Below, piece after piece: positions 5,919 through 22,092 of a DNA stretch of 64,000 nucleotides. The stretch comes from Myxococcales bacterium. Its GTDB lineage: Bacteria > Myxococcota > B64-G9. Position numbers and translations under genes: made by a program. The notes beneath the pieces were generated by a model. It was not told the origin of the DNA. It made no database searches and saw only the letters and a program-made list of their open reading frames with translations. The stretch is taken from positions 62,001-126,000 of the forward strand of contig JAAZNF010000092.1 of the NCBI GenBank assembly GCA_012798435.1, given 5' to 3'. Each line of letters opens with the position of its first letter. The stretch's first letter is position 1.

Positions 5919-6215
5919 ATGGTCGCCAAGGGTGAGAACTTTTTTCGGCGGCAGGCGCGGGTGCTCAAGGCGCTGGCGAACGAGTCTCGGCTCCAGATCG
6001 TCGACCGGCTCTCGCGCGGTGAGTGCTCGGTGGGCGAGCTGACGGAGCTGGTGGGCTCGGATCGCTCGACCGTGTCCAAGCACCTGTCCGTGCTTCGTGC
6101 ACACGGCATCGTGGACGACCGCCGGGAGGGGAACGTGGTGTACTACCGGCTGCTCACCCCCTGCGTGGTGAACTTCTTCTCCTGCGTCGCTCAGGTGATC
6201 AGGGAGGGCACATGA
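5919..6215 (+). CDS. ArsR/SmtB-family winged-helix metalloregulator
   Basis: 98 residues, typical for ArsR repressors, which bind DNA as dimers and release it when a metal or metalloid binds. The core runs from LKALANESRLQIVDRL (about 15-30) through SDRSTVSKHLSVLRAHGIV (recognition helix, about 46-65) to the wing REGNVVYYRL (about 70-78). The classic alpha3 motif ELCVCDL is not kept: only one Cys occurs there (GECSVGEL). Two further cysteines eight residues apart lie near the C-terminus (about 81 and 90), so the sensing site may be alpha5-type. ATG has GGGAGG 5 nt upstream. It is first in the operon, with a palindrome in its promoter. Ligand unknown: arsenite, copper, zinc or other. Confidence 0.9.
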   Translation: MVAKGENFFRRQARVLKALANESRLQIVDRLSRGECSVGELTELVGSDRSTVSKHLSVLRAHGIVDDRREGNVVYYRLLTPCVVNFFSCVAQVIREGT

Positions 6216-6292
6216 AAGACGATCCGCTCCTCCCCCCGTCCAGCTCGTCAACGGGGCCAGGTCGTCACGGTTGGCTGGGAGAGCCGATATGA
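6212..6292 (+). CDS. Possible 26-residue coupling ORF between arsR and the permease
   Basis: A 26-codon ORF whose ATG overlaps the arsR stop (ATGA at 6212-6215) and whose TGA overlaps the permease ATG (ATGA at 6289-6292). AGGGAGGGC lies just before its start. The peptide is rich in Ser and Pro with no recognised domain. Its two stop-start overlaps suggest a ribosome could pass from arsR to the permease through it. It may be a coupling or leader peptide or may not be a functional protein. Confidence 0.35.
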   Translation: MKDDPLLPPSSSSTGPGRHGWLGEPI

Positions 6293-7464
6293 GGGAACGG
6301 ACGAAACTTGGGCTGATCCTGGCCGTCTTCGCCGCCTGCTGGTTCCTGCCCACGGAGAGCGATCGGTTCTGGAGCGCCATCCAGGAGAGCCTGTCGCTCG
6401 TCAAGTGGTATGCGCGCGAGCACGTCCTGCTGTGCCTCATCCCGGCCTTCTTCATCGCCGGGGCCATCAGCGTGTTCGTGAGCCAGGGCGCGGTGATGAA
6501 GTACCTGGGACCGAAGGCGAAGAAGGCGGTCGCCTACCCCGTGGCCGCGGCCTCGGGGACCATCCTGGCGGTGTGCTCGTGTACGGTGCTGCCGCTGTTC
6601 GCCAGCATCCACAAGCGGGGGGCCGGGCTCGGGCCCGCCACCGCCTTCCTCTACTCGGGACCCGCCATCAACGTGCTGGCCATCATCCTCACCGCCCGGG
6701 TTCTCGGCCCCGAGCTGGGCATCGCCCGGGCGGTGGGCGCCATCTCGTTCGCGGTGATCATCGGCTTGCTGATGCACCTCATCTTCCGCAAAGAGGAGGC
6801 TGCGCGGCAGGCCGAAGGACCCGTCGTGATGCCGGATGAGGAGAAGGGCCGAGCCCTGTGGCAGGACGGGCTCTACTTCGCCGCCATGGTTGGCATCCTG
6901 GTCTTCGCCAACTTCGGCAAGCCCGCGGCCGGGGAAGCTGGCGTCTGGGCGGCGCTCCATTCGGTGAAGTGGATCGTGACGGGCGTGCTCGGGCTGGGCC
7001 TCGTCGCCAGCCTCGTCGCCTGGTTCAAGAAGGACGAGCTTTCGACCTGGGTCGACTCGAGCTGGACCTTCGCCAAGCAGATCCTGCCGCTCCTGCTCGG
7101 CGGGGTCCTGGTGGCGGGCTTGCTGCTCGGCGGGCCCGGTGGCTCGGAGCGTGGCCTCATCCCCAACTCCTGGATTCAGCAGGCCGTAGGCGGCAACTCG
7201 CTCCTCGCCAACCTGTTCGCCTCGGTCGTCGGCGCCTTCATGTACTTTGCCACGCTGACCGAGGTGCCGATCCTCGAAGGTCTGATCAAGTCGGGGATGG
7301 GCCAGGGACCGGCGCTCGCGCTGCTGCTTGCCGGACCGGCGCTTTCCCTGCCCAGCATGCTCGTCATCCGTAGCGTGATGGGGACCAAGAAGACCGTCGT
7401 ATTCGTCGGCCTGGTGATCGTCCTGTCCACGGTCGCGGGTTTGATCTATGGCGCGTTCTTCTAG
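6289..7464 (+). CDS. Permease of the SO_0444 / DUF318 (ArsP-like) family
   Basis: 391 residues and about ten membrane helices: an inner-membrane exporter. The signature CSCTVLPLFASIHKRGAGLGP (near residues 95-112) with SGPAINVLA just after is the hallmark of the DUF318/ArsP/SO_0444 permeases. These are reported to export trivalent organoarsenicals (ArsP) or Cu/Zn (SO_0444 type). A second copy of the half-signature (LLAGPALSLPSMLVI) occurs near 350, consistent with two repeats. The start at 6289 has GGGAGAG upstream; the track to 6271 would need a TTG start without a site. The ArsR gene upstream and thiol proteins downstream support export of a thiophilic metal or metalloid. Substrate not decidable here. 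Confidence 0.85.
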   Translation: MRERTKLGLILAVFAACWFLPTESDRFWSAIQESLSLVKWYAREHVLLCLIPAFFIAGAISVFVSQGAVMKYLGPKAKKAVAYPVAAASGTILAVCSCTVLPLFASIHKRGAGLGPATAFLYSGPAINVLAIILTARVLGPELGIARAVGAISFAVIIGLLMHLIFRKEEAARQAEGPVVMPDEEKGRALWQDGLYFAAMVGILVFANFGKPAAGEAGVWAALHSVKWIVTGVLGLGLVASLVAWFKKDELSTWVDSSWTFAKQILPLLLGGVLVAGLLLGGPGGSERGLIPNSWIQQAVGGNSLLANLFASVVGAFMYFATLTEVPILEGLIKSGMGQGPALALLLAGPALSLPSMLVIRSVMGTKKTVVFVGLVIVLSTVAGLIYGAFF

Positions 7465-7522: not shown

Positions 7523-7888
7523 ATGGAAGACCAAGGCAAGAAGCTCGTGGTGCTGGCCTGCTCGGGCGCCTCCAATACGGGGGCCTATTCGGACCTGGCC
7601 GCTCGCAGGCTGATGGCTGGCGGGAAGGGCAAGATGCTCTGCCTGGCGCGGTTCGCGGTGGATCCGAAGTTCGCAGAGACATCGAAGCGAGAGCTCGAAA
7701 CGCTCGGCGACGACGGCGAACTGGTGATCCTCGACGGCTGCCCGGTCAATTGCGCCGAAGAGATTATGAAGAAGAGCGGTTTTATGAAGTATCGCCACAT
7801 CAACACCACGGATTTTGGCATTATCAAGGGAAAGACCCCGGTGACGGAGGACAAGATCGGCGAAATCGTGAAGGCGGTCATTCATTAG
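7523..7888 (+). CDS. DGC-domain putative zinc-binding protein (first copy)
   Basis: 121 residues, cytoplasmic. It matches the DGC family (Pfam DGC domain), named for the conserved Asp-Gly-Cys. Here DGCPVNC lies near residue 72, with an earlier ACSGASNTG (Cys at about 13) and a MLCLA cysteine near 38, giving the four family cysteines presumed to bind metal. The biochemical role of the family is not established. AAGGAAG lies 12 nt upstream. It follows the permease by 58 bp and precedes a small membrane protein. A second, diverged DGC gene lies in the same operon at 8367. Such proteins may hand metal or a thiol-bound species to the permease; this is inference from context. Confidence 0.8.
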   Translation: MEDQGKKLVVLACSGASNTGAYSDLAARRLMAGGKGKMLCLARFAVDPKFAETSKRELETLGDDGELVILDGCPVNCAEEIMKKSGFMKYRHINTTDFGIIKGKTPVTEDKIGEIVKAVIH

Positions 7889-8370: not shown

Positions 8371-8771
8371 GCGGCGGCCAAGACTGTTGCTGCGCGACCG
8401 GGGTCCCGACGCTCATCTTCGCCTGCTCGGGCTCGTCGAACGTCGGCCAGCTCACGAACAGCCTGGCGCTGCGCCTCGCCCGCGAGAGCGTCGGGACGAT
8501 GTCCTGCCTCGCGGGGGTGGGCGCGCACTTGAGCGGTTTTGTCGTGCCGGCCAAGGACTGCGAGCGCCTGGTGGTCCTCGACGGCTGTGAGCACCGCTGC
8601 GCGCTCAAGACCCTCGAGCACGTGGAGGCGAAGCCACACGTCTACTTGAACCTCGCGGAACTCGGCTTCGTGAAGAAACACGGGGTACTCGCGGACGAAG
8701 CGGAGCTCGAACGAGCGCACGCCCTCGCGATCGACCGGTTGAAGGGATTTGCATGCTCGACAGCTTCGTAG
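8367..8771 (+). CDS. DGC-domain putative zinc-binding protein (second copy)
   Basis: 134 residues. Second DGC family member of the operon, clearly diverged from the first: LIFACSGSSNVGQL near residue 16, MSCLAGVGA near 45 and VVLDGCEHRCALK near 71 align with the four-cysteine scheme. It has an additional N-terminal Cys triplet (CCC at residues 7-9) absent from the first copy, and a Cys near the C-terminus. The start overlaps the thioredoxin stop; its 3' end overlaps ccdA by 19 bp. Two paralogues in one operon suggest either two substrates or a relay. Family biochemistry is not known, so no reaction is assigned. Confidence 0.8.
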   Translation: MSGGQDCCCATGVPTLIFACSGSSNVGQLTNSLALRLARESVGTMSCLAGVGAHLSGFVVPAKDCERLVVLDGCEHRCALKTLEHVEAKPHVYLNLAELGFVKKHGVLADEAELERAHALAIDRLKGFACSTAS

Positions 8772-9460
8772 CCAACGCCAACCAGTACATCCACACCAAC
8801 CCGTGGCTGGCGCTGGTCGCGGTGTTCGTGGGCGGCATCCTCACCGCCTCGAACCCCTGCGTGCTGGCGATGATCCCTTTGATGATGAGCTTCGTCGCCG
8901 GGCGCAAGGAGGACAAGCTCGGGGTGCTGCGCGCCTTCCTCTTCTCGCTCGTTTTCATCCTCGGGCTCGCGGTGACCTTCACCGTGCTCGGGATGATCGC
9001 CGCGCTCGCCGGAAAGATGTACGGAGACGTGTCGGGGGTCTGGAACTGGATCGTCGCGGCCGTGTGCGTCGTGATGGGCCTGCACCTTATGGGCGTGCTC
9101 ACCATTCCCATCCCGTCGTTGGGCGGAAAGCTGCAACCGAAGACCCGAGGATTGCTCGGCGCGCTCGTGCTGGGCCTGCTCTTCGGCGTCGTCTCGGCTC
9201 CCTGCGCCGCGCCCATCCTCGTGGTCCTCCTGACCTACCTCGCCGGTTCGGGCTCCTCGGTCGCGTGGGGCGGCTCGCTCCTCCTCGTCTATGCCCTCGG
9301 GCACAGCGTCCTGATCCTGATCGCCGGGACGTCAATGGGAGCCGCGAGACAGCTCATCGAAAACAAGAAGGCCACGCGGGTGCTGGAGCTCCTGCGCAGA
9401 GGCGCGGGTGCGGCGATCGTGCTCGTCGGGGTCTACTTCGCTTACAGAGGTCTGCAATGA
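8753..9460 (+). CDS. ccdA: CcdA-family membrane thiol-disulfide transporter
   Basis: 235 residues with six predicted membrane helices. CcdA/DsbD-beta proteins pass electrons from cytoplasmic thioredoxin across the inner membrane to periplasmic thiols. The two redox cysteines are visible in their usual settings: ASNPCVLAMIPL (about residue 43) and SAPCAAPIL (about 152). The start lies inside the 3' end of the DGC gene and the stop overlaps the next ATG. Flanked by a cytoplasmic thioredoxin-like protein upstream and a periplasmic CxC lipoprotein downstream, it fits a complete trans-membrane reducing relay dedicated to this operon. It could also serve cytochrome c maturation; the octaheme cytochrome lies further downstream. 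Confidence 0.85.
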   Translation: MLDSFVANANQYIHTNPWLALVAVFVGGILTASNPCVLAMIPLMMSFVAGRKEDKLGVLRAFLFSLVFILGLAVTFTVLGMIAALAGKMYGDVSGVWNWIVAAVCVVMGLHLMGVLTIPIPSLGGKLQPKTRGLLGALVLGLLFGVVSAPCAAPILVVLLTYLAGSGSSVAWGGSLLLVYALGHSVLILIAGTSMGAARQLIENKKATRVLELLRRGAGAAIVLVGVYFAYRGLQ

Positions 9461-9894: not shown

Positions 9895-9957
9895 GAATTG
9901 CGAATGCGCAATGGGGCACACAACAGGGAGAGCACGGTCATATGGCCGAGAGGCCAA

Positions 9958-11307
9958 ATGCGCAGCGCCAGGTCCTTGCTCGCTGTCGGCCTCGCATGTG
10001 CCATCTTCGTGTCTCCCGCGTACGCCGACTCGACTACCTCTTCTCCGGGACTCACCGTCATCGACTTACCCAAGGCGCTCGAGCTGGCCTTGCAGAATAA
10101 CCCCGAGCTGAAGGCGGCGCAGAGCGATATCGGCGTGGCCTCCGCGCAGCGTGACCGCGCGGCCTCGGGACATTGGCCTACGTTGAGGGCGCAGGCCGGC
10201 TGGACGGAGTACCGCCGCAACCAGCGGCTCTATCCCGCAACGAGCCCCGGTGAGCCGGCGGTCATTTCACATCACCTGCTCGGGGGCGACGTCGTCCTGT
10301 CCTTTCCTCTCTACTCTGGTGGGCGCATCAGCGGGAACGTGGACGTGGCCGAGCTTGCAGAGGACTCTGCGCGCGATACGAGCCAGTGGACGAAAGTCGA
10401 CCTCGTCTTCCAGGTGACGGCGACGTACTACTCGATCCTCGCGCAACGACGGCTGATCGCGGCGCTCACCTCCGCTGAAGAAGCGATGGCCAAGAACATC
10501 GAGCGGCTCGACGCGCTCGTGGCCGAGAGGAAGGCCGCGCCGCTGGATCGTCAGCGCATGGAGGTCCGCCTGGCGGCTCTCAAGCAGCGCCGGGTCCAGG
10601 AGGAAGCTGCGCTCAAGGTCCAGACGCTCAGCCTGCTGTCGCTCATCGGGCTCAGCGGCGACCGAGCGTCATTCGAAATCGTCGGCGACCTGGGCAAGCC
10701 GGGCGGGGCGCCGGCGCCTTCTTCGGAGAGCCTCGTGCAGGACGCCGTCGCGCGTCGCCCCGACTGTCGCGCCTTGAGGTCCGCGGTACGCGCCCAGGAG
10801 CGTCGGATCGATGTGGCCCAGGCGGGCCACTACCCTTCGCTCCTGGTCCAAGGTTCCTACGGTATGCGCTGGGGCCTGTGGCCGAGCGAGCAGCCGGACG
10901 GTGCAAGCGCCCTGGCCGATGTTGGCCAGGTGGGGCTTTACCTCGATGTGCCGATCTTCGAAGGCGGTCGGGTCACCGCCGAGGTGCGCGAGCAGCGGGC
11001 CCGGCTGAGCTCGATGCGGGAGCGGCTGCGGCAGGCCGAGCTGCGAGTACGCCTCGAGGTCGAGGCAGCCCTACTCGACTACAGGGCGGCCATGGAGCGA
11101 GTAGCACTGTCGGAGGCGACCATCGGTCAGGCCACGGAGGCGTTCCGTGTGGAGACCGAGAAGTACACGGAAGGCAAGAGCACCATTTCGGACGTTCTGA
11201 GTGCGCAGTCCGATCTCTTGGATGCCGAGGCCAGCCGCGCACGTGCGCTGGCTGACGCCAACATCGCGGCGGCCGCCCTCACGCGAGCTCTGGGAGAAAC
11301 GGCATGA
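9958..11307 (+). CDS. TolC-like outer membrane efflux protein
   Basis: 449 residues from the ATG at 9958, chosen because a clean signal peptide follows (to AYA-DS near residue 23); upstream in-frame starts lack one. The protein shows the TolC/OEP layout: two repeats of long coiled-coil helices, each opened by a strand, with the repeat openings LPKALELALQNNPELKAAQSD near 36 and SESLVQDAVARRPDCRAL near 240. It is the outer-membrane channel of the tripartite pump completed by the next two genes. Its stop overlaps the adaptor start (ATGA at 11304). A 60-bp gap separates it from the thiol genes, with no terminator seen, so it is probably in the same transcript. Confidence 0.85.
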   Translation: MRSARSLLAVGLACAIFVSPAYADSTTSSPGLTVIDLPKALELALQNNPELKAAQSDIGVASAQRDRAASGHWPTLRAQAGWTEYRRNQRLYPATSPGEPAVISHHLLGGDVVLSFPLYSGGRISGNVDVAELAEDSARDTSQWTKVDLVFQVTATYYSILAQRRLIAALTSAEEAMAKNIERLDALVAERKAAPLDRQRMEVRLAALKQRRVQEEAALKVQTLSLLSLIGLSGDRASFEIVGDLGKPGGAPAPSSESLVQDAVARRPDCRALRSAVRAQERRIDVAQAGHYPSLLVQGSYGMRWGLWPSEQPDGASALADVGQVGLYLDVPIFEGGRVTAEVREQRARLSSMRERLRQAELRVRLEVEAALLDYRAAMERVALSEATIGQATEAFRVETEKYTEGKSTISDVLSAQSDLLDAEASRARALADANIAAAALTRALGETA

Positions 11308-12446
11308 CCTCTAGAAAACACGTGATCTGGACGGCCGGCGTCATCGCGGTGGTCCTCGCCGTGATCGCCGGGGTCGTTCTCCTGGGTCGGCAGAACGGGC
11401 AGCCTCCGGCGGCGAGCAAGAAGAGTGATGGGCTCGCCGTCGAAGTACGGGTCGCCAAGGCGAAGACCGACACGATCCGTAGGGTTCGCGAGTTGGCCGC
11501 CACGGTCGAGCCAACCCGAATGGCACGTCTGGCATCGCCCGCCGAGGGACCGGTAGACAGATTGCTCGTGCGCGAGGGGGACCTCGTCAAGAGCGGGCAG
11601 CTCCTCGTGGTCATCGGCCGCAACCGCACTACGCGCGCCAAGCTGCTGTCGGATCGCGAGGAGCTTCGCAGGCTCCAAGACGAGTTCGAGCGTATGGAGC
11701 GGTTGGTCGCCAAGGGGGCGGTTGCCGGTGAGATGCTCGACAAGACGCGAGCCGACCTCGAGCGTGCCAAGGCCGTCGTCGAAGCGGGTGAGGAGGTGAC
11801 CTCCGATTTCCAAATTCGCGCCCCCTGGTCCGGCGTTGTCTCCCAAGTCCTGGTCCAGGAGGGTAACTACGTCGCGCCGCGGGTTGTCCTCTTAGAGATC
11901 TTCGATCCGGCGAGCCTGGTCGTCCGCATCGCGCTGCCCGAGGCCATCGCGCTCAAGGTTCAGCTTGGCGCCGAGGCGCGGGTGCGTTTCGATGCTTTGC
12001 CCGATGACGAGGTCGTCGGCGAGGTGACGCGGCTCTACCCGGAGCTGGATCGAAAGCTGCGCATGCGCGTCGCCGAGGTCGGCGTCACTAACCAGAAGGC
12101 TCTCGCGCCGGGAATGTTCGCGCGAGTTCACGTGACCGTGGAGGTGGTGCCCGAAGCGGTGGTCGTTCCGGCCACGGCCGTGGTGACCACACCCAAGCAG
12201 GAGCAGGCGCTGTTCGTCGTCGAGGGCGAGGTCGCACATCTACGGGTGATCAAGGCCGGCATCGAAGAGAGCGGCCGTCTTCAGATCGTATCGGGCGTGA
12301 GCGCGGGAGAGGTCGTCGTTGCCTCCGGCCACCAGAAGCTGAAGGACAGTGCGCGGATTCGGGTCAAGGAGGATGAGCCGAAGGCCGAGGGTCGGCCCGC
12401 GAGCCCGCCGAGCAAGGCAGGCAACCCAGAGGTCGGCCGACCATGA
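11304..12446 (+). CDS. RND periplasmic adaptor (membrane fusion protein)
   Basis: 380 residues. One N-terminal membrane anchor (about 8-27), then the lipoyl/barrel-sandwich halves (SPAEGPVDRLLVREGDLVKSGQ near 80 and IRAPWSGVVSQVLVQEGNYV near 170). A short coiled-coil hairpin lies between (about 115-160), then a beta-barrel domain and a membrane-proximal domain. The tail is Pro/Lys/Glu-rich. It links the RND pump in the inner membrane to the TolC channel. It lacks the long His/Met-rich N-terminal extension often seen in CusB-type copper adaptors, so substrate is not obvious. It overlaps both neighbours by 4 bp, giving a strict TolC-MFP-RND operon. Confidence 0.9.
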   Translation: MTSRKHVIWTAGVIAVVLAVIAGVVLLGRQNGQPPAASKKSDGLAVEVRVAKAKTDTIRRVRELAATVEPTRMARLASPAEGPVDRLLVREGDLVKSGQLLVVIGRNRTTRAKLLSDREELRRLQDEFERMERLVAKGAVAGEMLDKTRADLERAKAVVEAGEEVTSDFQIRAPWSGVVSQVLVQEGNYVAPRVVLLEIFDPASLVVRIALPEAIALKVQLGAEARVRFDALPDDEVVGEVTRLYPELDRKLRMRVAEVGVTNQKALAPGMFARVHVTVEVVPEAVVVPATAVVTTPKQEQALFVVEGEVAHLRVIKAGIEESGRLQIVSGVSAGEVVVASGHQKLKDSARIRVKEDEPKAEGRPASPPSKAGNPEVGRP

Positions 12447-15400
12447 GGATCACCGAGGTCTCCACCAAGCGACCGCTCTCCACGGCCGCGCTGGTCCTGG
12501 TCCTCCTCGTCCTCGGCGTCTACGGGATGGCGAGGCTGCCCGTCGACTTCCTGCCGGACGTGACCTACCCGTTGGTCAAGGTTCACATCTGGTGGCGCGG
12601 GGCCACGCCCGAGGAGATCGAGCGACAGGTCGCCGACCCGGTGGAGCGACAGCTCTCCACCGTCGATGGCCTGGACTATCTGGAGTCCTCCTCGATCGAG
12701 GGCATGTACACCCTCCAGGTCAACTTCAGGTACGGCGTCGATGTGGATGTGGCCTACCAAGACGCGTTGGCGGCCATGGCGCGCGTCGCCCGGGAGCTGC
12801 CCAAGGACCTGGAGCCGCCCATCGTGATCAAGGCCGATCCGTCGCAGCTTCCGGTGCTCCAGCTCACGGTCAGCTCGGGCGGCTGGGATCTGGTCAAGCT
12901 GCGCGATTGGGTCGATCGGTGGCTGCGTGACCAGCTCGTGGCCGTGCAGGGCGTGGCTGGCACCGAGGTGGTCGGTGGCCTCAAGCGCGAGATCCGCGTG
13001 CATATCGATCCGATGGTGGTCGAGCGTCATCAGCTCGGCCTCGATGACCTCGTCAAACGATTGGCGAAGGAGAACATCGAGCTGTCGGCCGGACGTGTCA
13101 CCGCCGGCAAGCGCGAGCTCATTGCCCGCACCACCGCGGAGTTCGCCTCACTCGACGAGTTGCGCAACGTGGTCGTGGCCCGCTCGGGCGAGGCCCGGCT
13201 GCTCCTCGGCGACATCGCCACGGTGGAGGACTCCCACGAAGAGGTGCGGGTCATCACCCGGCTGGACGGCAAGCCGTGCGTCAAGCTGAGCGTGCTCAAG
13301 CAGGCGGACGCCAACACCGTGGAGGTGGCGAGCGCCGTCATGAAGCGGCTGGACGAGCTTCGCCCCGGCCTGCCTCCAGGGGTCTCGCTCGGCGTCGTCG
13401 AGAACCAGGCCGAGTATGTCGAGTCAGCTCTCACCGGTGTCCGCAACACCGCGATCGAGGCGGCGATCTTGCTCGTGCTGCTGATGGCGCTGTTCCTCGG
13501 CAATTGGCGCCAGGTCGTCGCCATGACCTGGGCTCTGCCGTTTACCATCCTGACGAACTTCGCCTGGATGAACCTGGCCGGCATTTCGCTCAACATCTTC
13601 TCGTTGGGAGGCCTGCTGGTTGCCATCGCGGTGGACCTCGACAACTCGATCATCGTGATCGAGAACATCACCCGCCTGCGGCGCGAGCGTCCGGAGCTCG
13701 GCAGCGCGCGCCTCGTCGTTGCCGCGGTTCAGGAGGTGGGGCCGTCGGTGCTGGCCTCGACGCTCTCTTTCCTGGTCTTGTTCCTGCCGTTCCTGTTGGT
13801 TCCGGGGCTCGCGAGCCTGCTGTTTCGAGACTTGGTGCTTGTGGTCGCGGGGGTCATGTGCATCAGCTTCGTCAACGCCATCGCGGTGACGCCCGTGATC
13901 ATGGCGTTGCTCCTGCGCAGCAGCGCCGGGACCACGAGCGAGACGCGCTTCGAGCGGCTCGTTCACAGGGTGACGCTGGCCTACGGCCGGTCCCTCGGTT
14001 TCGTGCTGCGTTGGCGAGCCGCAACCATCGCGGTCTTCATCGGAATCGCGGCGCTCGGCCTCGTGTCCGTCTCGCAGCTTGGGACGGAGTTCCTTCCCCG
14101 CATGGATGACGGCCGTGTGATGGTGAAGGTGCGGCTTCCCACCGGCGCGGCGCTTGGCCAGATGGATGGCGCGCTCAAGCACGTCGAGTCCCTTGTCAAA
14201 GACGACCCGCTGATCGAGAGCTCCTTCGCCCTGGTAGGTGGCAAGGTCTGGGGTCTCTACACCTACGAGATCGCCAATGAGGGCGAGCTGAACATCCAGC
14301 TCATCCCGCGCGGCAAGCGGGACCTGACCACCGCGCAGTACGTGACGCGCCTCGAGAAGGTGCTCGCCGAGCACCCGCTGCCCGCCGGCAAGGCGATGGC
14401 GATGCAGATGAAGACCAAGGGCATTCGGGGCAGCTCGCTCTCCGAGATCGAGGTGAAGGTGCGCGGTAGCGACACGAACCGGCTATTCGCCCTGGCGCGC
14501 GAGGTCGGAGAGCGCATGTCCAAGGCGCCCTTCTTGACCAACGTGTACCAGTCGCTGGACATGAGCAAACCCGAGCTTCAGGTCAGCATCGACCGTTTCA
14601 GGATCGCCGACCTGGGCCTCACCGCGAGCGACGTGGCGACCTCGTTGCAGCGCCTGGTGAGAGGAGAGGTCGCGTCTCGTTACCGTGACGGAGACGAGTA
14701 CTACGGCATCCGTCTGATGGTGCCGGAACCCATGATCACGTCTCGCGCCTCGCTCGAGGAGCTGCCGCTCTTCTGCGGCTCGTCCGGCGGCTGTACCCGT
14801 GTTCGAGATGTTGCCCGGGTGGTGGAGGCGGTAGGCCCGGTCGAGATCGTCCGCGAGGACCAGATCAAGCAGGTCGTCGTGCGGGCCGACCCCTCCGGGG
14901 TCAGCGTCGGTGAGGCGCTCGCGCGGCTCAAGAGCAGCCTGGGCGCCATGGACTGGCCGCAGAGTTACGAGGTCAAGTACGGCGGTCAGGCCGAGCTGAT
15001 GGGTGAAGCAAAGCAAAGCCTGATGCTCGTCCTCGGCTTCGCGCTCTTCTTCGCCTTCGTGATCCTCGTGGTGCAGTTCAACCGACTGCGCATCCCGTCC
15101 ATCATCCTTGGAACCGTGCCTTTCTCATTGGCCGGCGTCGCGCTGCTCCTCGCCGCGACGAGCATCCCCGTCGGGACCACCGTCGTGATCGGCCTCCTGG
15201 TGGTGGTTGCCGCGCATGTGACCGAAGGAGTCCTCCTCCTGACGTACGCGGAGACCGCTCGCTCGACGGAGAACACCGATGCCGTTCACGCGGTGATCAA
15301 GGCCGCCACCACGCGCTTCCGTCCGCGGCTGATGACCGCGCTCGGCGTCATCATCGGCCTGTCTCCGATCGCGCTCAATCTCGAGGACGGCGGTGACATG

Positions 15401-15577
15401 CTGCAGCCGATGGCCGTGGCGGCGATCGGCGGGTTGCTGGTGACGGTCGCCGTCGCGCTCTATCTGGTGCCGGTGTTGTATGCGGTGGTGACGCGAGGGA
15501 CTCATGAGTTGAACGCTGTCGTGGTTGCCGATGTGTCAGAACCAAGTCCGCTTGATACAGAAGGAGAGAATCCATGA
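12443..15577 (+). CDS. RND-family efflux transporter permease
   Basis: 1044 residues, the full length of an AcrB/CusA-type proton-driven pump. TM1 at about 12-30, two large periplasmic loops (about 35-335 and 565-870), and TM2-6 and TM8-12 around them. TM4 carries VDLDNSIIVIEN with acidic residues for proton relay, while the equivalent TM10 segment reads VVAAHVTEGVLLL, with a His and Glu instead of the usual Asn-Asn. In the second periplasmic loop a CGSSGGC (near residue 776) puts two cysteines six apart just before RVRDVARV, which is unusual. It lacks an obvious CusA methionine triad. Context suggests a thiophilic metal, metalloid or thiol conjugate as substrate. Confidence 0.88.
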   Translation: MRITEVSTKRPLSTAALVLVLLVLGVYGMARLPVDFLPDVTYPLVKVHIWWRGATPEEIERQVADPVERQLSTVDGLDYLESSSIEGMYTLQVNFRYGVDVDVAYQDALAAMARVARELPKDLEPPIVIKADPSQLPVLQLTVSSGGWDLVKLRDWVDRWLRDQLVAVQGVAGTEVVGGLKREIRVHIDPMVVERHQLGLDDLVKRLAKENIELSAGRVTAGKRELIARTTAEFASLDELRNVVVARSGEARLLLGDIATVEDSHEEVRVITRLDGKPCVKLSVLKQADANTVEVASAVMKRLDELRPGLPPGVSLGVVENQAEYVESALTGVRNTAIEAAILLVLLMALFLGNWRQVVAMTWALPFTILTNFAWMNLAGISLNIFSLGGLLVAIAVDLDNSIIVIENITRLRRERPELGSARLVVAAVQEVGPSVLASTLSFLVLFLPFLLVPGLASLLFRDLVLVVAGVMCISFVNAIAVTPVIMALLLRSSAGTTSETRFERLVHRVTLAYGRSLGFVLRWRAATIAVFIGIAALGLVSVSQLGTEFLPRMDDGRVMVKVRLPTGAALGQMDGALKHVESLVKDDPLIESSFALVGGKVWGLYTYEIANEGELNIQLIPRGKRDLTTAQYVTRLEKVLAEHPLPAGKAMAMQMKTKGIRGSSLSEIEVKVRGSDTNRLFALAREVGERMSKAPFLTNVYQSLDMSKPELQVSIDRFRIADLGLTASDVATSLQRLVRGEVASRYRDGDEYYGIRLMVPEPMITSRASLEELPLFCGSSGGCTRVRDVARVVEAVGPVEIVREDQIKQVVVRADPSGVSVGEALARLKSSLGAMDWPQSYEVKYGGQAELMGEAKQSLMLVLGFALFFAFVILVVQFNRLRIPSIILGTVPFSLAGVALLLAATSIPVGTTVVIGLLVVVAAHVTEGVLLLTYAETARSTENTDAVHAVIKAATTRFRPRLMTALGVIIGLSPIALNLEDGGDMLQPMAVAAIGGLLVTVAVALYLVPVLYAVVTRGTHELNAVVVADVSEPSPLDTEGENP

Positions 15578-16194
15578 TTAACCCCAAGGACTACTACGAG
15601 CACGGCCTCGCGCTGCACGGTCACAAGTGCCCCGCGATGCCCATGGGACTACGTGTGGGCGCGGCCGCGATGAACGCCCTGGGCGTCGAGCGCGCCAAGG
15701 ATGGCCAGCTTCTGGCGCTGGTCGAGCTTGGCGACGACCATTGCGCCACCTGCTTCGCCGACGGCGTGCAGATGATCACCGGCTGCACCTTCGGCAAGGG
15801 CAACATCAAGAAGCTGCACTACGGCAAGTGGGGCGTCACGCTGGTCGATGTCGCGACAGGCCGGGCCGTTCGGGTCACGCCCAAGGCCGAGGCCATGCTC
15901 GCGAACAAACAGACGGAGTTCTTCAAGGAGTACCGCGAGAAGGGTGTCCCCGCCTCCAAGGTGCCGCTCGAAGTCGTCGAACCGCTGGTTCAACGGGTCA
16001 TGGGCGCGCCCGATGAGAAGCTGCTCTCCGTGGGCAAGCCCTTCCAGTACGAGGTCCAACGCCGGCCGCACTCATTCTCGAGCCTGGTGTGCGACAATTG
16101 CGGCGAGATGGTGGTCGAGGGCTACGCGCGACTTGTCGGTGACAAGAGGGTCTGCATCCCCTGCCAGGAGAAGCTGACCGGCGCCAAGGAATGA
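15574..16194 (+). CDS. FmdE-family protein with C-terminal zinc ribbon
   Basis: 206 residues. FmdE (formylmethanofuran dehydrogenase subunit E-like) family: the N-terminal HGHKCPAMPMGLRVG (about residues 14-28) is the family signature, with DDHCATCFADGVQMITGCTFGKGN (about 58-80) adding three cysteines. The C-terminal CDNCGEMVVEGYARL...RVCIPC (about 170-198) is a four-Cys zinc ribbon. Outside methanogens the role of FmdE proteins is unclear; they often occur near molybdenum, metal and electron-transfer genes. Soluble, no signal peptide. AAGGAGAG lies just upstream, and ATGA overlaps the RND stop. A cofactor or metal-chaperone role is a hypothesis only. Confidence 0.85.
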   Translation: MINPKDYYEHGLALHGHKCPAMPMGLRVGAAAMNALGVERAKDGQLLALVELGDDHCATCFADGVQMITGCTFGKGNIKKLHYGKWGVTLVDVATGRAVRVTPKAEAMLANKQTEFFKEYREKGVPASKVPLEVVEPLVQRVMGAPDEKLLSVGKPFQYEVQRRPHSFSSLVCDNCGEMVVEGYARLVGDKRVCIPCQEKLTGAKE

Positions 16195-16216: not shown

Positions 16217-16960
16217 ATGACCGCCATCATCGCAGGGCTCATCACGTTCGGATTCACCGCGCTTTTGACCATCGCCGGCGTCGGCGCGGCGTTCGTGTTG
16301 ATCCCTGTCTTCCTGGCCCTCGGCATCGAGGTCCACACCGCGATGGCGACCGCGCTGCTCCTCAACGCCGTCGCCATGTCGGTCGCCTCCGTCAACTTCG
16401 TCCGCAAGCGGCTCGTCGTCTGGAAGGTGGCGCTGCCGATGGTGGTGGTCGCGTCGACGCTGTCGCCGCTCGGCGCGTGGGTTAGCCAGGGGCTGGATCG
16501 GACCGTGCTCCTCTGGCTGTTCGTCGGCTTCCTGGTTTTTGCGGCGCTGATGATGCTCCTCTACACACCGCGGGCGCGGGAGACGACGAGTGGGAGCGGA
16601 ACCCTGCTCGTCGTCGGTCTCGGCGTTGGCGGCGTGGCCGGCTTTCTCGGCGGGCTGCTCGGGGTCGGCGGGGGCAACATCATTGTCCCCGCCCTCGTCG
16701 CCTATGGGTTCGATCCGAAGAAGGCGTCGGCCAGCACCTCGTTCGTCGTCATCTTCTCGTCCCTGACGGGGTTCCTCGGCCACATGTCGCTCGCCGGCAT
16801 GAACTACGCCTTGCTCGGCTGGACCACGGCCGGCTCGGCCGCAGGGGCCTTGCTCGGTTCGTGGCTCATGACCGACAAGCTCAAGGGCCGACAGGTCAAG
16901 TTGCTGATTGGCGTGGTGCTGCTGGGCATCGCGGCGAAGATGGCTTGGGGGCTCCTTTGA
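16217..16960 (+). CDS. TauE/SafE-family sulfite/anion exporter
   Basis: 247 residues with eight predicted helices in two repeats, as usual for TauE/SafE (DUF81) permeases. These export sulfite, sulfoacetate or other small organic or sulfur anions. The second repeat has FLGGLLGVGGGNIIVPAL near 150, matching the family glycine-rich helix, and the first has the degenerate counterpart ITFGFTALLTIAGVGAAFVLIPVFL near 7. GAGGAGAA is 12 nt upstream of the ATG. The stop overlaps a TTG start of the porin gene. A sulfur-anion exporter beside an octaheme cytochrome and thiol proteins hints at sulfur chemistry in this operon; substrate is not determined. Confidence 0.85.
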   Translation: MTAIIAGLITFGFTALLTIAGVGAAFVLIPVFLALGIEVHTAMATALLLNAVAMSVASVNFVRKRLVVWKVALPMVVVASTLSPLGAWVSQGLDRTVLLWLFVGFLVFAALMMLLYTPRARETTSGSGTLLVVGLGVGGVAGFLGGLLGVGGGNIIVPALVAYGFDPKKASASTSFVVIFSSLTGFLGHMSLAGMNYALLGWTTAGSAAGALLGSWLMTDKLKGRQVKLLIGVVLLGIAAKMAWGLL

Positions 16961-18354
16961 GGCTGTCGCGCCACCAGAACGTCGGGAGTCCCAGGCTCGG
17001 GCTCGCCGCTTGTCTTGTCGGCCTGCTCGTGATGGCTGGGCGCTCCGTGGCGCGTGCGGGCGAGGAAACCGAGAAGCCGAACAGCCAGGACGAGTTTTGG
17101 TCAAACCTCAAGAACATGCGGGCCGGCCCCGTGACGTTCGACCTCGGTGGGCAGGTGCGGCTGCGCTACGAATACGACGACGGCTTATCCATCAAGGGCT
17201 TTGAACCGGGCGGCCACGATCAGCTTCTGCTCGAGCGCATACGCCTCGACTTCTCCGCGCGCTTCTGGGATCGGCCGCGCCTCTTCCTTCAGCTTCAGGA
17301 TGCCCATCCCTTTCTGACCAGGCTCGGGCAGGCGGACTTCCCGACGAGCAGCCCGATCGAGGACACGCTCGACATCCGTCAGCTCTACGCCGAGTGGCTG
17401 AAGATCGGGGACAGCCCATTCGGCTTCCGGATCGGAAGGCAGCAGATCGCTTACGGCGACCAGCGCGTGTTCGGTCCCGGCAACTGGGGCAACACCGGCC
17501 GCTTCGCCTGGGACGCAGCCATGTTGAAGCTCGACACCGACTGGCTCGCGACAGACCTGTGGGTCGGCAAGTTCCTGACCTACCAGACCGACGTCTGGCC
17601 CAACCGCTCGAACGAGGACTTCTGGACGCTGGTCGGCTACCTGCAGCTCAAGGGGTTGCCGTTGCGCCTCGATCTCTTCTACGTCTTCAAGTACGACGGC
17701 AGCGGCAAGAGCGCGGGCGAGTCGGGCGCGGGCGACCTGTCGACCCACACCATCGGCTTCCAGGTTGAAGGCCGCGCCGCGAAGGTGATCGACCTGGCCT
17801 GCACCTTCGTCGGCCAGTTCGGGCGCTTCGGGCGTGACGCGGTGAGAGCCTTCGGCGCCAACATCAAACTCGGGGTCACCGCGCCCATGTCATGGAAGCC
17901 GAGGCTCGGCGTTCAGTACACCTGGGGCTCGGGCGACGCGGACCCGGACGACGGCGTGCACCAGACGTTCGATGGCGTGTTCGGCGGCCGCGACATCTTC
18001 TTCTATGGGTATCTCAACCTCTTCTTCTGGGCGAACTTGCACGACGCCGAGGTGGACTTCAGCGTGAAGCCCTGGTCAGGGCTCACCTTCTACGTCGAGT
18101 ACCATCACTTCAACCTGGATCAGGCCAGGGACGCCTGGTACACGACGGGTCTCAAGGCCTACCGGCGCGACCCGAACGGCGGATCGGGGACCACGCTCGG
18201 CGACGAGCTCGACATGCGCGCCGTCCTCAGCCTGTGGAACCACCTCGAGCTGATGGCCGGCTACGGCCGATTCTTTCCCGGCGGATTCGTGAGGGCCACG
18301 GGCGTTTCACCGGCGGCCAACTGGTACTTCGTCCAGGGAGCCTATTCCTGGTGA
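16957..18354 (+). CDS. Outer-membrane beta-barrel porin (alginate-export-like domain)
   Basis: 465 residues starting at TTG (TTGA overlap with the tauE stop); this start gives a complete signal peptide ending near AxA-G at residue 32. The rest alternates short amphipathic strands with aromatic ends (for example QVRLRYEYD, FGFRIGRQQIAYGD with a conserved RQQ...YGD, GVQYTWGSGD) and ends in Trp, as expected for an 18-strand-type barrel. RIGRQQIAYGDQRVFG near 155-170 is typical of the alginate_exp (AlgE-like) porin family. Located directly before an octaheme cytochrome, it could be a solute porin or the barrel of a porin-cytochrome conduit. No decision possible from sequence alone. Confidence 0.8.
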   Translation: MRLSRHQNVGSPRLGLAACLVGLLVMAGRSVARAGEETEKPNSQDEFWSNLKNMRAGPVTFDLGGQVRLRYEYDDGLSIKGFEPGGHDQLLLERIRLDFSARFWDRPRLFLQLQDAHPFLTRLGQADFPTSSPIEDTLDIRQLYAEWLKIGDSPFGFRIGRQQIAYGDQRVFGPGNWGNTGRFAWDAAMLKLDTDWLATDLWVGKFLTYQTDVWPNRSNEDFWTLVGYLQLKGLPLRLDLFYVFKYDGSGKSAGESGAGDLSTHTIGFQVEGRAAKVIDLACTFVGQFGRFGRDAVRAFGANIKLGVTAPMSWKPRLGVQYTWGSGDADPDDGVHQTFDGVFGGRDIFFYGYLNLFFWANLHDAEVDFSVKPWSGLTFYVEYHHFNLDQARDAWYTTGLKAYRRDPNGGSGTTLGDELDMRAVLSLWNHLELMAGYGRFFPGGFVRATGVSPAANWYFVQGAYSW

Positions 18355-18365
18355 AAGGAGCGAGC

Positions 18366-20876
18366 ATGATGAGACGGACACTCACAAGCCAGGGGATGAG
18401 CACGACGGGGCTCGCCGTGTCGGGCCTCGTGGCGCTCGGCCTCGCCGTCGGCTGTGGCGACCTAGAGCCGCAGGGCGTGCCGGTTCGACCGGAGGATGCC
18501 CCCGCCCGTGCCTCGGGTGTCTGCCCGCCGTTCCAGCTCCGCGACGAGGCGGGCAACGTCATCGACCCGGTAAAGGGCGTGAACGACACGGTGCCGTACT
18601 CGCCGCGGCAGACCTGCGGCGCCGCTGGCTGTCACGACTACGGCAAGATCACCGAGGGCTTCCACTTCACCCAGGGCAAGGGGGAGCGGGTGCCGGCCAA
18701 GATGGCCGAGCGCTACGCGTGGGTGACCTCGCCCGGCAACTACGGCGGCAACTGGTGCTCGCCCGCGCCGCTGTACCGCCAGCTCGCGCCCAAGAAGAAC
18801 CAAAGCGCCCGCGAGATCGACATGACCTCGTTCGAGTTCGTCACCGCCACCTGCGGCAACTGCCACCCGGGTGGCGGCCCGCTGGAGCTTGACCGCGACG
18901 GGAAGCGCTACGACGCCTGGATGCGCGACCCCACCTCGGGCCTGACCGCGGGCGGGGAGAACGGGCTCGACGGCGACTACTTCAAGGCGCGCTGGTCCGA
19001 GACGGGCGTGATCGAGGCGGACTGCCTGCTGTGCCACCAGCCCGAGTACGACTTCAAACGCCGCAACGCGGAGCTTGCGAACCTGAACTTCCGCTGGGCG
19101 GCGACATCCGGGGCCGGCTTCGGGGCCGTGACCGGGAAGGTGGGCGCCGGCGAGCAGCCGACCGTCACCTACGACAAGAACCGCTTCGACGCCGAGGGCA
19201 ACGTCCTCGTCCACATCGCCCCCGAGCCGCGCAACGAAACCTGCCTCACCTGCCATGCCAAGCCCGATTGGAAGAAGCGTGGCGCCAGCTACTCCACGCG
19301 CACCGATGTCCATATGGCCGCCGGGCTGCGCTGCGTGGACTGCCACGCGGCCGGCAGCAACGCGGCCGATCCGCGCATCCGAGGCCGCGAGGTCCATCAG
19401 TTCGGCAAGGGTGACGACCCCTCTGGCTTCGTGCGCAACGACCTCGACAACACCGTCCGCTCCTGTGAGAGCTGCCACCTCGAGGGCTGGCGCAACGCGC
19501 CGCGCGCCTCTCACGCCTGGCTGCCGCCGCTGCACCTGGAGAAGCTCGCCTGCCAGGCCTGCCACATCCCGACCCGCGCGGTGAAGAGCGCGCTGGTTCA
19601 GGCCAGCGACGTCTACAACCCCGCGCCGCGGATCACGCCGCCGGGAAAGCACATCTGGACCTTCTACGACCAGGACATGGCGTTCTGGAATCACTACGGC
19701 GAGCTCGAGCTGTTCTCGAACAAGGACCAGCCGACCGACGTCACACGGCCGACACTCTTTCGCTACCAGGGCAAGATCTACCCGGGCAATCGGGTGCACA
19801 GCGCCTGGGTGGGCTTCGAGGAGCAGGGGAAGCCGGGACTCAACCAGCTCTTCATGAAGGACTTCTTCCAGATGTGGGCCCAGCACCGGACCGATCCCAA
19901 GAGCAAGTACCCGGAGCTGGCGAAGATCACCGATGACAACCAGGACGGCATCATCGAGGTGAACCGGCCCGAGGAGATCGACGCGCTGCTCTCGGCGACG
20001 AAGGCATTTCTTGCGTCGACGGGCTTCCCGCTCGAGGGCCGGCGCTTGGTATGGGTCTCGGACAGCAAGGCGTACACCTCGGCGAGCGAGCCCCGGGAGC
20101 TGCCACGAGAGGAGTGGGAGGCCACGGCCTACGCCTCGGTGTACAAGTTCTCGCACGACGTCTCGCCCGCCCGGGCCGCGCTCGGCGCCGGGGGTTGCAC
20201 CGACTGCCACCGCCCGGGCTCGCCGTTCTTCCAGGGGGCGGTCCTCGATGTGGTTTTCGATGGCGACGGCGCGCAACCGCGCTGGGCGCCCAATCACCGG
20301 ATCCTCGGCCTGTCGTCGTCCTGGGTGACGCTGGGCGCGTTCCGCGAGGCCGGGCTCAAGCCCGTGGTCTACGGCCTCGGCGCCGCCGTCCTGCTGCTGC
20401 TCGCCGGGCTCGGCCTCCGTCGTCTGCTCGTCGCTCGGCTTGGCGCGCGTCCGCACCGCGCCGCGCTGCTCGCGAGCGCCGCCTCCGGTATCGGGGTGGT
20501 GGGACTGCTCATCCTCGCGGCATCGCCCGACTGGTTGAGCTATGTCATTGTCAGGCGCTTCACGCTCGACGCGAACCACGCCTGGGTCTCTCTCCTCTGC
20601 TTCGGCATCGGGGCGGCGACGGCGTTTCTTCCAGTGGCGGCCTCGGGTTGGCGAAACAAATCGCTGCGGTTGCTCAACCTCGTGATCTGGACGGGCCTCG
20701 CGGCCGGCGCCGTATCGGGCGCGCTGATGTTCGCCAAGCTTCCGGCGCTGGCCAGCTTGAATCGGCTGGCCTACACCGGCCTGGAAGTCGGCCTGGCGAT
20801 AGCACTTCTCGGTGCCTGCGGCTCGCTCTTGCTTCGGCTGGCGGCATCGGCCGCCACCAATGCCGGGAAGGCGTGA
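18366..20876 (+). CDS. Octaheme c-type cytochrome lipoprotein with C-terminal membrane domain
   Basis: 836 residues from the first of two tandem ATGs (AAAGGAG upstream). Lipobox LAVGC near residue 36. Eight heme motifs: one CX4CH (CGAAGCH, about residue 83) and seven CXXCH (CGNCH 162, CLLCH 219, CLTCH 292, CVDCH 322, CESCH 366, CQACH 395, CTDCH 611). The gap between the seventh and eighth is filled by a domain with an EF-hand-like DDNQDGIIEVNRPEE (near 520). After about residue 660 come five hydrophobic helices, with a His in DANHAWVSL. Octaheme cytochromes of the tetrathionate-reductase/hydroxylamine-oxidoreductase groups reduce or oxidise S or N compounds, but family membership here is unproven. 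The membrane part may exchange electrons with quinone. Confidence 0.8.
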   Translation: MMRRTLTSQGMSTTGLAVSGLVALGLAVGCGDLEPQGVPVRPEDAPARASGVCPPFQLRDEAGNVIDPVKGVNDTVPYSPRQTCGAAGCHDYGKITEGFHFTQGKGERVPAKMAERYAWVTSPGNYGGNWCSPAPLYRQLAPKKNQSAREIDMTSFEFVTATCGNCHPGGGPLELDRDGKRYDAWMRDPTSGLTAGGENGLDGDYFKARWSETGVIEADCLLCHQPEYDFKRRNAELANLNFRWAATSGAGFGAVTGKVGAGEQPTVTYDKNRFDAEGNVLVHIAPEPRNETCLTCHAKPDWKKRGASYSTRTDVHMAAGLRCVDCHAAGSNAADPRIRGREVHQFGKGDDPSGFVRNDLDNTVRSCESCHLEGWRNAPRASHAWLPPLHLEKLACQACHIPTRAVKSALVQASDVYNPAPRITPPGKHIWTFYDQDMAFWNHYGELELFSNKDQPTDVTRPTLFRYQGKIYPGNRVHSAWVGFEEQGKPGLNQLFMKDFFQMWAQHRTDPKSKYPELAKITDDNQDGIIEVNRPEEIDALLSATKAFLASTGFPLEGRRLVWVSDSKAYTSASEPRELPREEWEATAYASVYKFSHDVSPARAALGAGGCTDCHRPGSPFFQGAVLDVVFDGDGAQPRWAPNHRILGLSSSWVTLGAFREAGLKPVVYGLGAAVLLLLAGLGLRRLLVARLGARPHRAALLASAASGIGVVGLLILAASPDWLSYVIVRRFTLDANHAWVSLLCFGIGAATAFLPVAASGWRNKSLRLLNLVIWTGLAAGAVSGALMFAKLPALASLNRLAYTGLEVGLAIALLGACGSLLLRLAASAATNAGKA

Positions 20877-20884
20877 CCCGGATT

Positions 20885-20941
20885 CCCGGCGGGCGGTCCC
20901 TGTCGACGGGTTGGCCGCTGCTCGGCTGGACCGCCGCCGGG
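20885..20941 (+). terminator. Strong hairpin after the arsR-cytochrome operon
   Basis: Arms 20885-20899 (CCCGGCGGGCGGTCC) and 20928-20941 (GGACCGCCGCCGGG) pair with one bulge around a 28-nt loop, starting 9 bp after the cytochrome stop. There is no T-tract, so intrinsic termination is uncertain, but the position fits an operon end. Confidence 0.4.
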
Positions 20942-20980
20942 TCTGGCGGCGCAGCGCGGATGAGCGGCTGAATTCAACAC

Positions 20981-21009
20981 TTGTGACTGGCGCTGCTCCT
21001 TGGCAGAAT
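20981..21009 (+). promoter_or_regulatory. Predicted promoter of the UbiA gene (leaderless)
   Basis: TTGTGA (20981-20986), 17 bp, CAGAAT (21004-21009), then 6 nt to the GTG start at 21016. Transcription would begin on or next to the start codon, and no Shine-Dalgarno is present. Confidence 0.55.
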
Positions 21010-21015
21010 GCGCCC

Positions 21016-22092
21016 GTGTCGAACTGGATCCACATCCTGCGCACAGGCAACCCTCAGGAGGGCGTGCCCCTGGGGCCGGTGAGCCGCTGGCTGCTCATCA
21101 CCCGCGCCTGCGTTTTCTCCATGACCGCGCTCTCCGCCGGTATCGGGGGGCTGCTGGCCGCCCGGGCCGGGGCCTTCGACTCTCTCTCGTTCTCGCTGGT
21201 GTTGATCGGGCTGTTGTTGGCGCACGCCTCCAACAACATGCTCAACGACTACTTCGACGTCCGCCTGGGGGTGGACACCCCGGGCTATGCCAGGACCGCC
21301 TATGCCCCGCATCCCCTCTTGTCGCGTCTGGTGAGCGTGCCGGCCTTGTGGCTGGCGATCTCCCTGTGCACCCTGGCTGAACTGGGTGTGGCGCTTGTGC
21401 TTACCTCCTGGAAGGGCTGGCCGGTGCTGGCCTTCGCTGCGGCGGGTTTGGCCCTGTCGGTGTTCTACGTGGCACCGCCCTTGAAGCTCAAGCATCGCGG
21501 GTTGGGAGAGCTGGCCATCTTCGCCATCTGGGGCCCGCTCATGATCACGGGCACCTTCTACGCTCTGGCGGGGACGCTGCCTTGGCAGGTATGGCTGGCC
21601 TCCATGCCCTACGGGCTGGCGGTGATGGCGGTGGTGGTGGGAAAGCACCTCGACAAGCGCGCCCAAGATCGGGAGCGCGGAGTGGGTACCCTGCCGGTGC
21701 TCCTGGGTGAGCGGGGAGGCCGGCGGCTGATGGCTGCACTCGTTCTGCTGCTCTACCCCAGCGTGACCGTTCTGTCGCTGGCCCGCCTGTTGCCATGGGC
21801 GGCCCTTCTCGTGTGGCTGTCGCTGCCCCGGGCGCTGCGGGTGGTGAGAATGCTCCGACTCCCCATGCCCGACTCGCCCCGGGCGGCCTTCGAACTGGCT
21901 GCGGATGCCATCCCCCGCGATCTGCGGCGGCAATACGATCCCGCTCTGGGCGGGCAGCGCTTTCCGCTGTGGCCGTTGTGGTTCGTGGTGTGGGGCGTGT
22001 GGTGGGTCCGCGTGGCCGGGGCCTGGCTGCTGGCCGGCCTGGCGTTCGGCCTGGCGGAGCCGTGGCTGCTGTTCCACCTCTGGGGCGGCTGA
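21016..22092 (+). CDS. UbiA-family prenyltransferase (MenA-like)
   Basis: 358 residues, nine or so membrane helices. UbiA enzymes attach a polyprenyl chain to an aromatic acceptor in the inner membrane. The first Asp-rich motif is NNMLNDYFDVRLGVD near residues 74-88 (NDxxD type) and the second is DKRAQDRERGVGTLPVLLG near 213-231, which bind the Mg-diphosphate. LVIGLLLAH before the first motif fits helix 2. The GTG start replaces longer upstream frames because it is preceded by a promoter with the -10 six bases away. The acceptor (dihydroxynaphthoate for menaquinone or another) is not determined; no other quinone gene is nearby. Confidence 0.85.
   Translation: MSNWIHILRTGNPQEGVPLGPVSRWLLITRACVFSMTALSAGIGGLLAARAGAFDSLSFSLVLIGLLLAHASNNMLNDYFDVRLGVDTPGYARTAYAPHPLLSRLVSVPALWLAISLCTLAELGVALVLTSWKGWPVLAFAAAGLALSVFYVAPPLKLKHRGLGELAIFAIWGPLMITGTFYALAGTLPWQVWLASMPYGLAVMAVVVGKHLDKRAQDRERGVGTLPVLLGERGGRRLMAALVLLLYPSVTVLSLARLLPWAALLVWLSLPRALRVVRMLRLPMPDSPRAAFELAADAIPRDLRRQYDPALGGQRFPLWPLWFVVWGVWWVRVAGAWLLAGLAFGLAEPWLLFHLWGG

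Follow-up and report, generated by a model that had tools for sequence, protein, structure and literature searches.

A probable octahaem reductase related to octahaem tetrathionate reductase, fused to a five-helix membrane module and frequently encoded beside arsenic genes

The octahaem gene and its surroundings

The gene under study is located in the window, i.e. the whole stretch of 64,000 nucleotides analysed here, and codes for a protein of 836 amino acids that combines eight haem-binding motifs with a membrane module. Its start codon lies 12 bases 3' of the stop codon of an outer-membrane barrel gene and follows closely on the ribosome-binding site AAAGGAG. The island from the ArsR gene through the octahaem gene is encoded entirely on the plus strand and is given below together with the gene downstream.

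5919..6215, + strand: ArsR-family repressor
6271..7464, + strand: permease ArsP_1 (PF03773)
7523..7888, + strand: probable DGC-domain small thiol protein (read from the sequence; the DGC HMM check was made in L025 only)
8753..9460, + strand: CcdA-like thiol-electron transporter (sequence and similarity)
9904..15577, + strand: efflux trio of TolC, membrane-fusion and RND proteins, three ORFs
15574..16194, + strand: FmdE domain with zinc finger
16217..16960, + strand: TauE/SafE permease
16861..18354, + strand: Alginate_exp (PF13372) outer-membrane barrel (listed ORF, which probably begins too early)
18366..20876, + strand: octahaem cytochrome with fused five-helix membrane module (translated ORF)
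20812..22092, + strand: downstream prenyltransferase of the UbiA/MenA kind (listed ORF with an uncertain start)

No gene for ACR3, ArsM or ArsC was found within the 18 kb examined of this island, and the single ACR3 gene in the 5 Mb of the window genome resides on another contig. The Alginate_exp barrel lies near the octahaem gene in 8 of the 20 loci compared, and an FmdE-domain protein with a C4 zinc finger can also be found at L018, L021, L023 and L029. The prenyltransferase, which may make the quinone used, is not conserved beside octahaem homologues. Further downstream, positions 22429-26751 code for a protein of 1440 amino acids that contains a Kelch region and domains resembling TIG/IPT; it seems to have no connection with the island.

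Haem motifs and other features of the protein

With the haem motifs taken from a motif scan, the octahaem gene can be divided as follows.

18366..18455, + strand: signal peptide with lipobox LAVGC (Cys30), next residue G (from the sequence; not family-wide)
18615..18635, + strand: haem 1, CX4CH, CGAAGCH (C84-H90)
18756..18758, + strand: codon of Cys131, an invariant non-haem Cys aligned with Cys64 of octahaem tetrathionate reductase (OTR); four homologues have TGA here, probably for Sec
18852..18866, + strand: haem 2, CXXCH (C163-H167), proposed active-site haem (motif scan and alignments)
19023..19037, + strand: haem 3, CXXCH (C220)
19242..19256, + strand: haem 4, CXXCH (C293)
19266..19277, + strand: D301-x-x-K304, counterpart of OTR D150/K153 (alignments)
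19332..19346, + strand: haem 5, CXXCH (C323)
19464..19478, + strand: haem 6, CXXCH (C367)
19551..19565, + strand: haem 7, CXXCH (C396)
19566..20195, + strand: spacer between haems 7 and 8, residues 401-610 (210 residues; sequence)
19932-19967, + strand: EF-hand-like loop DDNQDGIIEVN, residues 523-533, inside this spacer
20196..20210, + strand: haem 8, CXXCH (C611)
20316..20843, + strand: five-helix membrane module with invariant R660, E661, K665, P666, Y669, R731, D735, H738 and G785

The seven CXXCH motifs and the one CX4CH motif counted in the initial annotation were recovered at residues 84, 163, 220, 293, 323, 367, 396 and 611, the first of these being the CX4CH, and the large spacer with its EF-hand-like loop as well as the lipobox were confirmed at the positions given above. 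With respect to their conservation, haem 1 is CX4CH in 13 of the 18 homologues of sufficient length to judge and CXXCH in the Bacteroidota and Armatimonadota members and the Sec forms, so that CX4CH is optional; D523, D527 and E531 of the loop are invariant in the close family and lost in some distant Sec homologues. The lipobox Cys is missing in about half of the homologues, and lipidation is therefore no feature of the family.

Residues 50-640 amount to about 8 kDa per haem, which exceeds the 7 kDa per haem given as the figure for catalytic cytochromes (PMC7096707) and was counted as support for the catalytic class. AlphaFold2 modelled the haem region with pLDDT values of about 25-50, both within the whole chain and for the head alone. 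A Foldseek search of the whole-chain model against the PDB gave no match with E < 1, and hmmsearch with the full family profile gave no match in the PDB.

A five-helix membrane module that is exchanged for cytochrome b561

Five hydrophobic C-terminal helices within residues 651-826 are predicted both by hydropathy and by the model, with pLDDT values of mostly 75-94. R660, E661, K665, P666, Y669, R731, D735 and H738 are located at the predicted periplasmic helix ends, and the loops on the opposite, cytoplasmic side are rich in Arg, as expected from the positive-inside rule. Searches with the module resulted in single-member chance matches only in Pfam and in no match in the PDB (hmmsearch), and among 58 related genomes it was seen in the octahaem gene only.

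For this domain, a histidine binding either a b-haem or a quinone had initially been considered. H738 is the sole invariant His of the module, and a bis-His b haem would need two. The b-haem part of this suggestion is therefore not supported, whereas a quinone-type membrane domain fits and a quinol site is more plausible. Cytochrome b561 is a known type of quinol module. In L022 and in a second octahaem copy at L016 the five-helix module is replaced by a cytochrome b561 (PF01292), and this swap is the strongest argument for its role: on these grounds it is probably a quinol module and not a b-haem domain. The combination of lipid anchor, eight haems and quinone-type membrane domain on a single chain is likewise in agreement with the evidence. 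A relationship between the two kinds of module was rejected: tested against PF01292, the window module has no Pfam match and lacks several conserved His, and hhalign against the b561 tails of L022 and the second L016 copy gave 0.2%. The octahaem head at L022:8004-10766, fused to its PF01292 domain, is 75% identical.

Distribution of the family

In a single scan of genome contigs, relatives with 52-74% identity were found at 19 loci in seven phyla, namely Thermodesulfobacteriota, Aminicenantes, Acidobacteriota, Nitrospirota, Myxococcota, Bacteroidota and Armatimonadota, the homologues coming mostly from metagenome-assembled genomes (MAGs). About 200 residues are invariant across 17 aligned family sequences, and together with the retention of CX4CH in 13 of 18 homologues this argues that the octahaem architecture is more than chance. 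The head encoded in a MAG labelled Desulfonema shares 83% identity with the window's head, yet within the window's own phylum only 4 genomes out of 195 contain a strong relative, which favours horizontal transfer. Taken from such comparisons, the evidence speaks for a real family that is spreading horizontally among phyla. Neither plasmid-borne copies nor a homologue with established biochemistry were found. A supposed soluble version at L030 was rejected, the membrane module being present in an overlapping frame.

Kinship with octahaem tetrathionate reductase

The best curated model for the octahaem protein is TIGR04315, which describes OTR. What stands is kinship and not membership: the match reaches 50.8 bits, well short of the 375 bits set as cut-off, in comparison to 549.8 bits for a true OTR encoded elsewhere in the window's genome. 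In a profile-profile comparison with five OTR relatives, the family aligned across haems 3-7 with a probability of 98.9% (E 1.6e-17), and the His columns of haems 1, 2 and 8 coincide in three of three MAFFT modes, so that all eight haem motifs are found in the same order as in OTR.

The likeness extends to the active site. Cys131, which across the family is invariant or replaced by Sec, shares a column with OTR Cys64 in all three MAFFT modes, and Lys304 with OTR Lys153 in two of the three (the OTR numbering Cys64, Asp150 and Lys153 being taken from the alignment to 1SP3). In the published structure of OTR, Lys153 is the ligand of haem 2, and Cys64 sits in the pocket. All 20 sequences share six further His (100, 316, 344, 383, 390 and 597), which would suffice for only six of the eight sixth ligands, so that an active-site haem ligated by Lys can be accommodated. 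As judged from these alignments, the octahaem family is a sister branch of OTR within the OTR superfamily, with Cys131 and Lys304 as the counterparts of the active-site residues Cys64 and Lys153.

A natural control for the Cys site is provided by paralogues adjoining OTR genes in the window's GTDB family (L002, i.e. G000:C127, L004, L005 and L006), where the loss of the haem-2 motif went along with that of the Cys and of DxxK, the other haem motifs being retained. By themselves, these paralogues look like an electron-transfer partner or a pseudo-enzyme of OTR.

Probable selenocysteine at the position of Cys131

An in-frame TGA occupies the Cys131 column in homologues from G021, G072 and G073, presumably Anaeromyxobacter-like genomes, and in the second octahaem copy at L016, which reads W-TGA-S at this codon. 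All four TGA genes contain a SECIS-like hairpin that begins 19 bases from the TGA and has the loop AGUU, with stems spanning 7 bp, one of the four containing a mismatch and that of L016 being wholly different in sequence; at the same place, hairpins in the 17 Cys genes reach at most 4 bp. A selB gene above the curated cut-off is present in G021, G072 and G073, and none was found in the MAG of L016, which is incomplete. Sequencing errors were rejected as an explanation, because the same codon is affected in four genes and the hairpins are absent from the Cys genes. TGA at the Cys position, hairpin and SelB were thus found for homologues and not for the window gene, and in the four homologues the TGA is a probable selenocysteine codon. 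The exchange of Cys and Sec at position 131 in turn suggests that Cys131 is probably the catalytic residue.

The second copy of L016 (L016:15392-17802) lies on the same Thermodesulfobacteriota contig, ends in the cytochrome b561 tail and has its own barrel upstream. It also carries a frameshift just 3' of the TGA and may, given this, be decayed or misassembled. In addition, a distant OTR-like octahaem gene at L015 (G021:C1, about 526931-528142, minus strand) has an in-frame TGA between haems 1 and 2 that probably places Sec at the site of OTR Cys64, in line with the one Sec-containing, GenBank-annotated member of TIGR04315 listed in a review (PMC13188914).

Arsenic genes in the neighbourhood of the homologues

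At least one of ArsP_1, ACR3, ArsM and ArsC is encoded near the octahaem gene in 17 of 20 neighbourhoods, and ACR3, ArsM or ArsC in 10 of them. Neighbours of homologues scored 462 bits for ACR3 (curated cut-off 282.8) and 344.9 bits for ArsM (curated cut-off 263); a thioredoxin-type ArsC stayed below its cut-off with 123.3 against 174.3 bits, yet this was its best match. According to a rough estimate that assumes one gene per genome, about 0.06 ACR3 genes would be expected in the 281 kb examined, in contrast to the four loci seen. Other neighbours are ArsR, CcdA, small thioredoxins and DGC proteins. A weak ACR3 match at L025 turned out to be an SBF transporter and was not counted, L025 being included through ArsP_1. 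Two small membrane proteins encoded side by side at L017:5529-6574 look like half-permeases of the ArsP_1 type, the first without a match in Pfam and the second without one in NCBIfam.

All four markers are absent at L016, L021 and L027 (the latter comprising 3.3 kb only), and none of them was found near the Sec homologues in Anaeromyxobacter-like genomes. As the Sec homologues lie outside ars islands, the ancestral substrate may differ. No report of an octahaem cytochrome in ars operons was found in the open-licence PMC literature.

Proposed function and alternatives

With its OTR-like Cys/Lys site and its arsenic-gene setting, the octahaem protein is probably a reductase, so far uncharacterised, that serves respiration or detoxification, and the possible new terminal reductase envisaged at the outset fits the evidence. 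With moderate confidence, we place it in the OTR superfamily as a periplasmic, quinol-driven reductase that has a Cys/Sec-haem site and takes part in the metabolism of arsenic or organoarsenic compounds. Anchored in the inner membrane and facing the periplasm, such an enzyme would oxidise quinol at the periplasmic face of the five-helix module; electrons would enter the haem chain at the membrane-adjacent haem 8 and travel to haem 2, where the substrate would be reduced by the Lys304-ligated haem together with a reactive residue 131, which is Cys here and Sec in some relatives. The likely substrate would be an oxidised arsenical, i.e. arsenate, methylarsenate or a thioarsenic species, which is the least certain part and is taken solely from the neighbourhood; the trivalent products would pass to the thiol proteins and ArsP/ACR3 permeases encoded nearby. 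The more specific proposal of a molybdenum-free, haem- and Cys/Sec-dependent arsenical reductase that is driven by quinol via the new five-helix module and has spread horizontally over seven phyla is tentative and leans towards the doubtful.

The same quinol-linked Cys/Sec-haem reductase might instead act on tetrathionate, polysulfide, thiosulfate, sulfite or nitrite/hydroxylamine, the arsenic genes being adjacent since such islands also handle thiol chemistry. OTR, the closest relative, reduces tetrathionate, nitrite and hydroxylamine in vitro, and both the TauE/SafE permease of the window island and the Sec homologues outside ars islands would agree with such a substrate. However, TauE is present in 4 of 20 loci compared with the 17 of 20 that carry ArsP_1, ACR3, ArsM or ArsC, and no sulfur-oxyanion or nitrogen gene family recurs among the neighbours examined, which leaves this alternative rather unlikely.

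Alternatively, the enzyme might run in reverse, taking electrons from As(III) or methylarsenite in the periplasm and passing them to quinone, with the less toxic pentavalent form as the product. Such a role would suit the arsenic gene context as well as the ability of Cys or Sec to bind trivalent arsenicals, and quinone modules can run in either direction; however, the OTR relatives are reductases, and from established potentials the reaction would be uphill when linked to menaquinone, so that we consider it improbable. Finally, the protein might be no enzyme and merely conduct electrons from quinol, via the adjacent barrel, to acceptors at the outer membrane or outside the cell; a porin-linked conduit had been named as a possibility in the initial annotation. 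The barrel 12 bases upstream and the eight haems would suit such a role, which is likewise improbable, because the barrel belongs to Alginate_exp, is not MtrB-like and is missing from 12 of 20 loci, the cytochrome has membrane helices of its own, and about 8 kDa per haem and the conserved Cys/Sec together with the haem-2 Lys signal catalysis.

Comparison with known systems

The kinship with OTR, the probable selenocysteine and the links to arsenic islands are additions to the initial annotation, which had been made from the sequence alone. With HAO, octahaem nitrite reductase and NrfA the protein shares the character of a multihaem c-type enzyme with many bis-His haems. A placement among HAO or NrfA is nevertheless not supported, as their family models have no match to the protein and it contains no CXXCK; weak matches of the NrfH and NrfB models are located around the CXXCH motifs.

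ExtKL of Geobacter is a multihaem c-cytochrome with Sec, encoded near the porin-like gene ExtI and linked to selenite/tellurite reduction (PMC5877670). Sec in a multihaem c-cytochrome (here in homologues of the octahaem gene only) and a porin-like neighbour are common to both systems, whereas ExtKL has five haems and no reported fused membrane domain, and the similarity of ExtI to phosphate-selective porins is described as weak. The ExtKL model NF040886 is not among the NCBIfam matches of the octahaem protein.

OTR (TIGR04315; PDB 1SP3, Shewanella) has the eight haem motifs in register, the Cys between haems 1 and 2 and the Lys 3' of haem 4 (K153) with a Gly two residues further in common with the family. 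In contrast, its head comprises about 440 residues compared to about 590, and the 210-residue spacer, the CX4CH haem 1, the fused membrane module and the arsenic islands are particular to the octahaem gene. To our knowledge, the physiological substrate of OTR is unsettled, and the Cys/Sec pair at the corresponding site points to a catalytic role of OTR Cys64. In the five-helix module, the family also provides an unclassified membrane unit that putatively oxidises quinol and is exchanged for cytochrome b561 in two homologues.

The respiratory arsenate reductases known so far are of the molybdopterin type. If the arsenical reading is true, the octahaem protein would share its role and its quinol coupling with ArrAB and the associated CymA/ArrC, ArrA being a molybdopterin enzyme whereas the octahaem protein contains haem only. 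Arsenate respiration without ArrAB has been reported, its mechanism not being settled (PMC9751042), and the octahaem family offers a concrete candidate enzyme for this process.
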